Shown in pieces: positions 42,601-48,600 of a DNA stretch of 64,000 nt (within the stretch, counting starts at the first letter, position 1; each line of letters opens with the position of its first letter). The notes under the pieces were generated by a model. It was not told the DNA's origin. It saw only the letters and a program-made list of their open reading frames with translations, and made no database searches. The stretch comes from Pteria penguin (taxonomy: Eukaryota; Mollusca; Bivalvia; Pterioida; Pteriidae). The DNA is taken from contig CM068582.1 of assembly GCA_035048485.1 (NCBI GenBank), positions 38,312,596 to 38,376,595 on the forward strand. The letters are read 5' to 3'. Both the position numbers and the translations under genes were made by a program.

Positions 42601-45600
42601 ACTGATTGAGTTACCAGCTCAGATTCTTACTAGATGTAGAGAGGGGGCATTCTTATTTCACAAATACATCTTGTTGAGTATTGAAATTCATCTTGATCAG
42701 TTTTTCATTTGGTATGGATCCGTAGGAAAGCTATTACGTTTTGTTGTTAACCATCCATTGATTTTAATTTGAAATGTTTTTTAATACAAGCACACTTACA
42801 AGTGTTAATGTTCCATTTTCAGGACATTGACTGGGTTCAAACAGAGAAGCATGTATTTGAGACAGCAACTAATTACCCATTCTTAGTGGGTCTACATTCC
42901 TGTTTCCAAACTCCTAGTCGGTAAAGATATATAATGATTTTATTTCATTCTAAAGAACTATTAGAAAAAGTATTGCCTAACTTTGTCCAAAGAACTAAGA
43001 AAAAATCAAACAAATTCTCTTTAAAATTATGTTTTCAGTTTGTTATTATATTCATGCCTCCTAAACAGACAGAGGCTGAATTGGAAGGGATGTTTGGGTT
43101 TCTGTTGCTATGAACAGATGATGTAATCTTGACATAAATAACAAATAGGTGCACATGATCCAAGTTTGACTTCTGGATTGTGCAACTGTATTTTAATATG
43201 TTTGTTATTTTGTGCTTCCATGTTGTGATATGATTAAAAACTTGTTGAAAGTGACATATTACACCAACCAAACTAATCAATTTTTAGCTATAATCAAAGA
43301 CGTGAAATAATTTAAGTTTGATGTAAAACAATAACTAGAAGCAGAAATTTTTAAATGTTGGATATGATCTGTATCTACTTTCAGTTTGTTCTTTGTTATT
43401 GAGTTTGTGAGCGGAGGTGATTTGATGTTCCACATGCAGCGACAGCGACGGCTACCTGAAGAACATGCTCGATTCTATTCTGCTGAGATTTGTCTTGCTC
43501 TGAATTTCCTCCATGAAAGAGGTAAATGCCTTGTTGTTAATTAAGGCTCAGTGATTATGAAGAGACAAGTATACTACAGATATTGTTATTGTATTCCACA
43601 AATGAAGGATAGTATTTTCATTATGAAATATGCCTGTCAAAATTTTCAATTTTTGTCTGGATTACAAAGCATTTTCGGTCTGTAGATTGGCAATGGCCAT
43701 CTGTCTGTCGATCAACTTTGGTAAAAGTTTCTGGTTTAAGCAAAATCTCAGCAACTAAGAGGAGTAGAAATATGATACTTACACATAGATTCCTTATGAC
43801 CAGAGCTTTCAAATAATGCCATGACCTTTGACCTAGTAACCTTGACCTTCGACTTTGATCTACTTTTTAAAAATTTCAACTCTGGCTATATCTTTGAATC
43901 GATAGGGCTAGAGCTTTGATACTTCACACATAGGTTCTTTGTGATGAATGCTTTCAATTGATGCTACGAGTTTTGACCTTGTGACCTTGACCTTGTCTCG
44001 AATTTGCTTTGCAATCCAGCCATACCATCTTTAGTAGTTTCTTGTAATATTTCAAAAACAGTTTTCATATCATAGTACTAAATGGAAAAGGCGTTTAAGT
44101 GGTATCCAATTCTTTCAAGGCTTTTCTAAGATATTTATCTAATTTCTTGTAACTTAGGCATAGTGTACAGAGATTTGAAGTTGGACAATGTGTTATTGGA
44201 CCATGAAGGACATATCAAACTGACAGATTATGGCATGTGCAAGGTGTGTATCGATAGCAAGTTACAGTAAAAATAACATTATATCAGAGTAGGAAGAGAT
44301 ATATTTTAATTAAAGATTATCATACAGTGAAAAAAAAAAGATTATCATTGTTTAAGAGTACAGTTACCATTTTTGAATATGAAAACTGCTTGTAGAAGAA
44401 TTTTTGATAATATTTCAGAGTATGTGTAAACTTTTTCATGGATTTGTTGTTAACTTAAAGGTTTCGTTTATCAGTAAGAGTCAGTGAAAGTTGATTCATA
44501 TAAACATGTGAAAACTTAAATTTTGTTTAGTGGTCAGACTAATCACATATCACAAAATATGTGAAGAAAGATTAGACCTAGATTAACATTTTTGAGTTGG
44601 TTGGTTGATTGGTGTTTTACGTCGCTTTCAACATTTTTCCAGTCATGTCGCGACATAGAAGCAGGAGGTAACCAACCTCTTACACATAATGGTGCATCCT
44701 GGAAATCGAACCCAGATCATCAGTTCCGCAATTTTTTTTTTCTTTATTTTAGATATTGTTGAGAAGTATATATGTACTTGGAAGAAAAACAATAGTAAGC
44801 AGTAAATTGTAAATTTTAAACATGCTGGTTTATGCTTATGTATTATATATAATATGAGGAAATTTGGCAAAATAATCAGTTTCACATTGAAATGGACTTG
44901 TATACCATTCAGATTCTGAAGTTCTCACAGTATGTTAAATTACATGTGAAAAAGGGATATGTGATGTTGTACATATTCTTTGCATTTAATATTGTTTTAC
45001 CAGTGTTTTGTTGTTGTCAACCTGTATTTTGTTCACTTACACCGAAGAGGAGAACATTTTGGTTTGTTCGTCCATAATCTCCATTGTCTGTACAACTTTT
45101 AGGAAATTTTCCGTAAGATCAATTGTTGCTGTAGAGGCATCATTGTATTCATGACTTAAAATGTCATCAAAGTCTGGCACATAAATTTTACATCAAAGAA
45201 AGGCCTTTTAAATATGTTCAAATTCCTCAGCTATCCTTTTCAACAGCACTTGGAAGCTGGTCAAATTGTATTTTCATCATGATATGAGTGACTGTTTTTT
45301 CCCTGTCATTTGAAACTGTAAAGAAACAAATCACAGATAAAAGATAAATAAAATTATAGAATTAGACAATAATTTAGAAATTTGTTTTGCCACAAGCATT
45401 TGTGTAGTAATACCTGCCAGTGTTTACCTATGTCATTTATTTCTTGCATGCATGAAAGATTTTTGTCATTTCATAATTCTCAGGATGGGATGAGACCTGG
45501 TGATACAACTTCTACCTTTTGTGGGACTCCTAATTATATTGCCCCAGAAATATTACGTGGCAATGATTATGGTAAGGTCTTGGACTAGAGAATGTCGCAA

Positions 45601-48600
45601 AATAAAAAGGGGTATAAAAGTAGTAAAGCCCTAGAGAAAATCTAGACTGACAAAATAGCAATGCATTTGTATTCCATAAGTTGTATTTACAACTAATGCA
45701 GATATTTTTATTGATCAAAACTATTTGGATTAACATGACATTCATTTCAGGTGAAATTAATATTGATTGTTACATTCATAAAAAAATTATTCAGTCAGTC
45801 CAGGTTTTCTCTGACCAGTATGTTCTTTTATGTTCTCACCCTCAAATTGAGCACAGGCAATTCTAATATCTGATTTCTTGTGCTATTTATTTCACTAACA
45901 TAGGAGGGTTTACGTCCAGGAGATGTGACAAGCACATTTTGTGGGACGCCCAATTATATAGCACCTGAAATCCTGAGAGGAGAAGACTATGGTAAGACAT
46001 TGTAGGCAGGTCTGTGCAATACATGTTTTAAACATGTGTGTGACAGAGTAGTGATAGGTCTACAATATACACATATTACAATGGGGTACAGGTGTGTTAC
46101 ATGTGTATTAACACACAGGTATGGTATAATACTATTAGTATTAAGCACTGTGTTATATTCAGGTACACAACAAGAAATAAAGAAAGGTTAACATGGCTTT
46201 TGGTGGTATATTGTTATCAAAATTATTTCATTTCAAATATCATTGGTGTAGGTATGTTATCTATTATTTATCATTGTGTATGTGTTTTAAATTAGACTAT
46301 TAGTCAGCAGAAAATTTATGAAACAGTAGTAAGTCTTGAAAATTCCAAATTTTAGAAGGTGTCTGCTTCAATCTCTAGAGATCAGTACTGTGTTTGACCT
46401 GTGAAAGTCAGCCAAAGTAGTGTTCTACTAGCATTAATTATTTAGTGGAATTCTCAAGAAGTGTGTCTGATTGTTCCAGCAAATTTTCAGTTCGGTATCT
46501 GTATCTGTGAAGCCTTTTTCTGAGAGATATTCTATTGGAAATAAATCATGAGTAACCAGGGTAACTAGCAAGTGTTGTCTTTCTGTTAAGTTGGGTATTC
46601 TTCCTTGCATGAATACATGACTGTGTAGGTTGTGATGTTTTGCACTTGTCTCCTAACAGTATTGGTACGTCATGGCTGGCCCAGTATAAGGACACTAGGT
46701 GTACAACCTTATGCATTGTATATGTTTTGTGTGCTAACAGAAGATTGAATAAAGGTGTGTACTGTAACATTATGCCTACTGGATCCATCACAGGTTGTTA
46801 TTTTCATGTATAACTGATTCCAAGATGAAATAATCTATGCCCTACAGTGCAGATTATGCCCCAACACAACCCAATACAACCTAATTACTCCAGGGTTTTT
46901 TTTTTTTACCTATATGGCAAGTTGTTAACCTTTCTTTTGTTGTCGAGAATAGATATGATATACTCAAGTATATATCATAGTTTTAGAAATAAAATGAAAT
47001 GGTAAGTATGTACACATGTATACTTGTAGATATTTCATTTAGACCAGAAACTCTTATGACAGCTACAGGAGAGGACCACAGAGCATGACAATCATGGAAA
47101 GGGAAGATAACTTGAAAATGATTCTAATAGAGAATTGATTTTACTTTTGTTAACAGGAAGGCCTTTGGCCAGGAGACAGGACCAATACGTTTTGTGGTAC
47201 TCCTAATTATATCGCACCAGAGGTTCTAAGAGGAGAGGAATATGGTACAGTAGTGAGCTAATGTTAGTCTGCTCTGGTAGCTTCCTGCATAAATTATCCA
47301 GATTTACTCCTTGTGGTGCTGCAGCACTTCTACCTGCAACATCCCCCCTCATCATATCATCCTCTACCAGAGTGGACACAGAGCCATGCTTGCCTTATTC
47401 ATTACTGTCTTGTGATCAGTATTTAAGTCATGTTCATTATCATCATTTCAAATCTCAAGCACATGTTGATAAAAAGTTTGAGTCTATCACTGTTTTATAT
47501 CATTACTTTTTCTTTGTGAATTGTTATGTTTTGTGCTTGAGTTTTGAATTTGCTAGTTTGTTGCATTTTGATATTTTTCATTATTGTTAACAGTAGATAA
47601 GGAAAACAGTAAAGTTTTAGATAATTGTCTTAGTATATTGTACTTATACCTGAATTTGGTTTGTATTTCTTCAGTAATGATTAAGATAAAGATGCAGTTT
47701 GTTTGTAAATATTGTGGATTTCATGCAGTTAATATGTTTTCATAAGAATTGGAAGATGTTTTTAAAGATATTATAAAAATATATCATTTCCATCAAATAT
47801 AAATCATGGCTATTCAGAGGAAACTACTTGTCATTAGGCAGGTTACAATTGCTTTCTATCTTCCAGTAAAGAAACACAAAGAGATTACACAAATGTTTTC
47901 CATCTTTCACTGGAGATAACACTCTCCACCTCTCATTAGAGATAACATTCTCCATCTTTCACTTGAGATAACGCTATCCACCTTTCACTTGAGATAACGC
48001 TCTCTACCTACCACTGGAGATAACATACTCCACTGGCGATAACACTTTCCTCCTTTCACTGGAGACGGTGTTTCCCACCTTTCACACTTTCACTTCTTGT
48101 TATTCTCCACTAATCAGAGCAAGCTCATTCCATATATACTGCATTGTACTGGTATTATATTATCCATAACATATTTAAATGCTAAGTATGCTGCGAAAAA
48201 AAATTTCTTGTAATGTATATATATTGTTATCATATAGGTAAAATATTCTTTATGCAGTTAAACCCAATTATCAACATGTATATATAAAGTATATAAAAAT
48301 ATATATGATATATAAATAGATATATTAATTAGCTTTATCCAGTTTTCAAATACAGTATGAAATATATATTATCTAATTTCATATCTTGCTTATCTTGCTA
48401 AATACATGTAGTGTTTTGACTCATGATTTGGGAATAAAGTATTTCAATTTGAAAAATGATGATAAAACTTTATGATGTGAAATGAATATTTGAAAAATTA
48501 GTGTATGTAACATATTTGGTTATCTCTATTTAGAAAAGTCATGAAGTTCTGTATCAGTATTATGTCATTTGTGAGATCAAGAGTTATTTGATACAGGTTA

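Follow-up and report, generated by a model that had tools for sequence, protein, structure and literature searches.

Atypical protein kinase C (aPKC) is a highly conserved polarity kinase, and the question raised by the locus described here is whether a single aPKC gene can exchange the activation loop of its kinase domain by splicing. The locus lies in a 64,000-nucleotide (nt) stretch of DNA from Pteria penguin (the window), in which we assembled exons by eye and with a script. Very probably, as judged from sequence, three tandem 88-nt exons (A1, A2, and A3) fill one slot of the gene by mutually exclusive splicing, so that one of three 598-amino-acid (aa) kinases would be made from each mRNA. 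Specifically, the ancestral slot would have held one exon with serine before the PDK1 threonine and isoleucine after the APE motif (S...I); an early molluscan tandem duplication would have given rise to an exon with asparagine and valine at these positions (N...V, A3); and a later duplication on the pearl-oyster line would have placed A1 beside A2. Nonsense-mediated decay would remove transcripts that include none, or more than one, of the copies, exclusivity would reflect regulated choice combined with decay rather than steric blocking or a U12 switch, and loop choice would tune phosphorylation at T412. If this is correct, one gene gives three differently tuned polarity kinases. Such a switch had been proposed from an earlier inspection of the same DNA (the original prediction); its alternative loop exons, its frame logic, and, in relatives, its exclusivity stood, whereas its claim of differences in the P+1 segment did not.

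Three exons in one reading frame

A1, A2, and A3 lie on the plus strand (Table 1), each 88 nt long, bounded by AG and GT, and with phase 0 at entry and phase 1 at exit, so that the intact exons, shared phase, and canonical splice sites of the original prediction were all found at the coordinates it gave. The introns around them measure, in order, 1240, 332, 1165, and 2340 nt. Computation of all eight inclusion patterns upheld the accompanying argument that a functional mRNA needs exactly one copy: each of the three single-copy patterns yields a 598-aa product, and the other five stop prematurely, 403–526 nt upstream of the last exon junction (438–526 nt with two or three copies, 403 nt with none). 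Because the stops fall at this distance, the five non-single patterns are expected targets of decay. In tblastn comparisons, the copies match one another with E-values from 5.6e-14 to 2.8e-16. By sequence, A1–A3 form an exon array, being adjacent homologues of equal length and phase, each having its own splice sites, with a frame predicted to be kept solely by single-copy use.

The array is confined to this slot and this locus. A coding pattern for FCGTPNYIA occurs at exactly three places in the 838-Mb, 49-contig assembly, and these are A1, A2, and A3. A genome protein search with the A3 loop returned at least 21 matches, three of which are A1–A3, and among the matches listed only these three stand in tandem on one strand; no tandem loop exons of another kinase were found among them, the sole other pair within 10 kb lying on opposite strands of C8. 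Inside the window, no further slot copy was found (weaker tblastn matches have E-values of 0.12 or worse), and no duplicate of another aPKC exon was found at an E-value of 0.05, save one chance match containing a stop, in a search that left aside the first exon and a 5-residue microexon.

The surrounding gene is a complete aPKC coding gene on the plus strand (24679–51534), comprising 18 constant coding exons, among them a candidate 15-nt hinge microexon, and the three-exon slot. Its frame is open from the ATG at 24679 to the stop at 51532–51534, with all chosen junctions AG/GT, and gives a kinase of 598 aa with any single slot exon. Pfam analysis of the 578-aa A3 product (lacking the first 20 residues) identified PB1 (PF00564) at the N terminus, C1 (C1_1, a single stretch), Pkinase (1.2e-64), and Pkinase_C. 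The pseudosubstrate RKGARRW (28614) precedes the C1 domain; DYGMCK, in which DYG replaces DFG, and TFCGTPNY are present in all three predicted isoforms; and FDGFEY in the last exon places an acidic residue at the hydrophobic-motif phosphosite, in line with the rule described for aPKC (PMC7104321; articles cited here by PMC number were available to us in part, and statements that rest on them apply to those parts). PKC iota provides the top PDB matches for a 71-aa piece comprising the A1 loop and C-lobe. The predicted product has the full set of aPKC features, namely PB1, pseudosubstrate with a single C1, an AGC kinase domain with DYG, and an acidic hydrophobic motif, as do PRKCI, PRKCZ, and Aplysia PKC Apl III.

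Loop types and what their choice may tune

A1, A2, and A3 do not differ in the PDK1 threonine, in the P+1 loop CGTPNY, or in APE. In numbering of human PKC iota, counted from T412 as the threonine of TFCGTP, the copies differ at five equivalent positions before T412 (402, 404, 405, 409, and 411) and at three after APE (424, 428, and 429). The predicted differences next to the PDK1 threonine are therefore present, reaching residue 411 and recurring just after APE, and those predicted for the P+1 segment are absent. In particular, T409 is changed to V or R, S411 to N, and, in A3, R405 to W, and I424 after APE is changed to V; in A3, the serine adjacent to T412 is lost and position 409 becomes arginine. 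Phosphorylated T412 is the activation-loop site (PMC11996676). We infer that loop choice would mainly tune the phosphorylation, protection, and dephosphorylation of T412, and hence the lifetime of the active kinase, and not the basic substrate motif.

Three protein searches returned 285 proteins, from which 273 loops were parsed; the lists were ranked by similarity to the query and clustered at 90%, which hides many isoforms, and the figures that follow do not amount to a census. Most loops (222/273) are of the S...I type. V after APE occurs in 11/273, each with N before the threonine, and the A3 loop of the Pinctada imbricata model P0002, skipped because the parser took the first loop of P0002, makes a twelfth. 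The N...V carriers are Mytilus californianus X2, M. coruscus, Saccostrea echinata X3, Mercenaria X2, Gigantopelta X2, Aplysia X1 (P0024, Aplysia californica), Babylonia X2, Pomacea X2, Littorina, and two lgn records. All nine named carriers are molluscs, Gigantopelta being a gastropod. A search with the A1 loop found no further DGM-type loop, P0002 being its sole carrier among the 285 proteins.

In annotated isoforms, X1 and X2 of M. californianus differ in the loop and nowhere else, and the same is true of X1 and X2 of Gigantopelta; in each pair, one isoform has the usual loop, with S, G, or C preceding the PDK1 threonine and I following APE, and the other has an N...V loop that corresponds to A3. 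Two intronless lgn records, P0050 (2416 nt) and P0011 (2593 nt), each contain a single loop, and the two loops differ in type; both records are probably transcripts of Mytilus, lgn presumably denoting assembled public reads. Exactly one loop is present per record in both isoform pairs, which are predictions, and in P0011 and P0050. The exception to this one-loop rule is P0002, a pipeline model with three copies and a frameshift. The annotated isoforms of these relatives support mutually exclusive aPKC loop exons, and comparison with other molluscs, as the original prediction had advised, revealed the two-type switch in mussel and snail records. A two-way loop switch probably predates the bivalve–gastropod split, as judged from these sequences; the three-way form was seen in the window and in P. 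imbricata only. Nine of the 285 proteins besides P0002 have two loops (P0001, P0003, P0004, P0006, P0007, P0096, P0187, P0188, and P0273) and were not considered further, since they probably reflect errors of gene models or assemblies; inspection of the first six showed that they repeat the same loop wholly or partly.

The same comparisons bear on whether the choice matters. Splicing could pick one loop from three that are biochemically equivalent, with selection just keeping each of them working, as the invariance of the PDK1 threonine, P+1 loop, and APE and the shared S...I type of A1 and A2 would allow. We consider this redundancy unlikely, although it is the strongest of the alternatives, because the split between N...V and S/G/C...I is common to bivalves and gastropods, which is unexpected among redundant loops, and because A3 matches the Mytilus N...V loop at 28/29 residues. 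Indeed, A3 is closer to the N...V loops of Mytilus and Gigantopelta (26/29) than to A2 (24/29) and A1 (21/29) of its own gene.

Constraint, age, and splice control

In the pteriid bivalve P. imbricata, the constant part of the protein is identical to that of the window at 513/560 residues. Model P0002 (FSP39_015074) contains, in order, A1, a frame-shifted stretch, and A3, which is the order of the window. A1 and A3 are each identical to their window counterparts at 29/29 residues. Back-translation of the frame-shifted stretch gives a length that fits one 88-nt exon plus a few codons of intron, and the stretch is compatible with A2 at 29/29 sites, with A1 at 26, and with A3 at 25. In a control of 2000 shuffles over the 27 inner sites, the fit to A2 had a mean of 6.7 and a maximum of 14, compared with 27 observed. 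The minimum number of inferred A2 differences between the two species is 19, distributed over codon positions 1, 2, and 3 as 1, 1, and 17, in a count that resolves ties to the nearest codon and largely hides second-position changes, leaving the first-versus-third contrast unaffected. Given the identity of A1 and A3 together with the fit and codon-position pattern of A2, all three exons appear to be kept as protein-coding in both species. Separately, the P0002 model joins all three loop exons through a frameshift and an apparent false acceptor, and such gene models may hide the loop switch in other mollusc annotations.

These data speak against a reading, quite improbable in our view, in which one or two copies are functional and the rest are relict or decoy exons that lower aPKC output through decay, as poison exons do. 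The position of the premature stops relative to the last junction is what such control would need, and the donor of A3, gtacag, does not follow the standard GTAAGT. All three copies nonetheless remain open, retain the kinase motif, and are constrained at the protein level, and 17/19 of the inferred A2 changes between the two species fall at third positions. Both loop types are also represented among full-length isoforms and among intronless records from Mytilus or a Mytilus-like species, and a pure poison exon has no need of a conserved 12-residue loop stretch.

The copies are old and, by sequence, under protein-level selection. They share just 58, 60, and 64 of 88 nt in pairwise comparison, which excludes a recent or assembly duplication, and 25, 21, and 24 of 29 residues. 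Between the copies, synonymous differences are saturated (ps 0.81–0.95) and nonsynonymous divergence (dN) is 0.12–0.20, indicating protein-level constraint. Flanks of 40 nt match at 11–15 positions, and the flanking introns give no same-strand alignment better than an E-value of 0.017. A tandem gene or assembly artefact, made of collapsed haplotypes or retrocopy fragments, has next to no probability: two of the three copies are close to each other, but the low nucleotide identity, unrelated flanks, intact splice sites, single locus in the assembly, and same order in P. imbricata already contradict it.

As to how one copy would be chosen, steric exclusion was rejected, the smallest gap between copies being 332 nt, as was U12/U2 incompatibility, since none of the donors (gtgtgt, gtaagg, gtaaga, and gtacag) is U12-like; the U12 donor motif and the GTAAGT donor consensus served as yardsticks. 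Relative to that consensus, two donors, gtacag of A3 and gtgtgt of the constant exon upstream, look weak, which suggests regulated use.

Several observations weigh against the proposed three-way switch or against parts of it. First, an intron search for docking and selector RNA pairing, suggested in the original prediction, found nothing beyond shuffles, in a small test of two docking regions: with 24-nt tiles at a step of 8, 44250–44850 was compared with the regions upstream of the copies and 48400–49570 with the regions downstream, with 12 shuffles each, and the best tiles (−16.4 and −17.5 kcal/mol) lie within the shuffle range (minima −17.7 and −19.4 kcal/mol). Second, the contacts of Lgl (G398, pT412, Y419, and E445; PMC11996676) are all at constant positions, so an effect on substrates is not indicated, and tuning of T412 phosphorylation or protection is to be expected more than substrate choice. 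Third, the Mytilus and Gigantopelta isoforms are NCBI pipeline predictions, and P0011 and P0050 also differ at two residues besides the loop and may come from different individuals or species. Fourth, among 24 chosen loops (nine N...V and 15 others, the chiton left out), the N...V loops share on average 25.6/29 residues with one another, the others 25.4 with one another, and loops of different sets 23.3, a modest gap over 29 residues, which are too few for a firm tree. Fifth, X1 and X2 of the chiton Liolophura are both N...M, which makes the deepest age of the switch uncertain. Finally, N at 411 occurs with I at 424 in 5/273 loops, four of them from named non-molluscs. These five N...I loops (P0133, P0146, P0093, P0094, and P0036), whose carriers include a horseshoe crab, two Strongyloides-group nematodes, and a nemertean, are single-site parallels of the molluscan N...V type.

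Precedents, coordinates, and further features

Tandem homologous exons that fill one slot, one per mRNA, are known from PKM1/PKM2, FGFR2 IIIb/IIIc, and Dscam. Unlike in those systems, what the exon encodes here is a polarity kinase's activation segment, which is regulated by phosphorylation, and the limited pairing test gave no docking or selector signal. In JNK, the alternative exons lie C-terminal of the activation segment; the aPKC slot spans the region from the PDK1 site to just past APE. As here, JNK1 and JNK2 have a slot in a Ser/Thr kinase domain that is filled by one of several homologous exons, the mutually exclusive exons 7a and 7b, which are said to affect kinase activity (PMC8746764). 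The present case differs in kinase family and in having three exons rather than two. Mutually exclusive kinase-domain exons are thus already known from JNK. In line with the original prediction, which knew of no aPKC with a switchable loop, our search, with most subscription journals and bioRxiv outside it, found no description of alternative aPKC activation loops. The diversity of aPKC described in PMC7104321 and PMC5650170 arises by means other than loop exons, and the available parts of the Helix and Aplysia papers PMC4475826 and PMC13282866 do not mention a loop switch.

A splice-swapped loop in so conserved a kinase would provide natural, selected variants beside the PDK1 site, and loop-swapping animals would make it readily possible to ask in vivo whether the flanks of the activation loop govern how an AGC kinase is activated and its lifetime. 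In Aplysia, aPKC has already been studied for memory (PMC7104321). Tentatively, and with less than even confidence, we suggest that molluscs acquired the aPKC loop switch before the bivalve–gastropod split, that N...V may mark a second kind of aPKC with a lifetime of its own towards PDK1 and phosphatases, that pearl oysters may have three settings, and that the N...V form (Aplysia X1) may lie behind the memory kinase PKM Apl III.

Table 1. Coding exons of the Pteria penguin aPKC gene, in window coordinates.
Feature	Coordinates	Strand	Basis
First coding exon, 20 residues	24679..24737	+	Regex; frame joins PB1 exon
PB1 exon a	25395..25516	+	Pfam PB1 2.3e-12
PB1 exon b	25842..25931	+	Assembly, Pfam
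PB1 exon c / linker	26852..26902	+	Assembly
Pseudosubstrate exon	28603..28688	+	Assembly
C1 domain exon	32319..32453	+	C1_1 4.7e-15
Hinge exon 1	34732..34831	+	By eye
Hinge exon 2	35921..35955	+	By eye
Hinge exon 3	36448..36477	+	By eye
Candidate 15-nt hinge microexon EQKEE, optional, in frame	39616..39630	+	By eye
Kinase N-lobe exon, GRGSYAKV	41089..41253	+	Assembly, Pfam
Kinase N-lobe exon	42823..42920	+	Assembly
Kinase exon, GGDLMFHMQ	43385..43521	+	Assembly
Catalytic-loop exon, ends DYGMCK; constant 5′ neighbour, donor gtgtgt	44158..44243	+	Assembly
Alternative exon A1, S...I type, DGM...NDY	45484..45571	+	tblastn; 29/29 aa identical in P. imbricata
Alternative exon A2, S...I type	45904..45991	+	tblastn; P. 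imbricata copy compatible 29/29
Alternative exon A3, N...V type, donor gtacag	47157..47244	+	tblastn; 29/29 aa identical in P. imbricata; 28/29 identical to the M. californianus X2 loop
Constant 3′ neighbour exon, DFSVDWW	49585..49710	+	Assembly
Kinase C-lobe exon, IRIPRSLS	49985..50064	+	Assembly
C-lobe/turn-motif exon	50589..50794	+	Assembly, Pfam
Last coding exon, FDGFEY and stop	51447..51534	+	Assembly, Pfam

The hinge contains very short exons (hinge exons 2 and 3 and the candidate microexon), and chiton isoforms vary here too, an 8-residue hinge insert being present in Liolophura P0010 and absent from P0009. Besides the loop slot, the hinge, which lies near the calpain-cut part of Aplysia aPKC, may vary by splicing.

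The introns of the gene also contain repeats. A minisatellite at 41591–42289 (15.6 copies of a 45-bp unit) is open in several frames, with a 204-aa stop-free stretch at 41683–42297, and is probably not a gene. A tandem array with a unit of ~146 bp occupies 37541–39025, and a similar-looking array of ~144 bp lies downstream at 57493–57762. Four tRNA-like predictions, three of them also made by Rfam, are located at 24836–24909 (Thr), just inside aPKC intron 1, and at 54358–54431 (Trp), 54640–54709 (Arg), and 57418–57490 (Arg); these are possibly tRNA-derived repeats.

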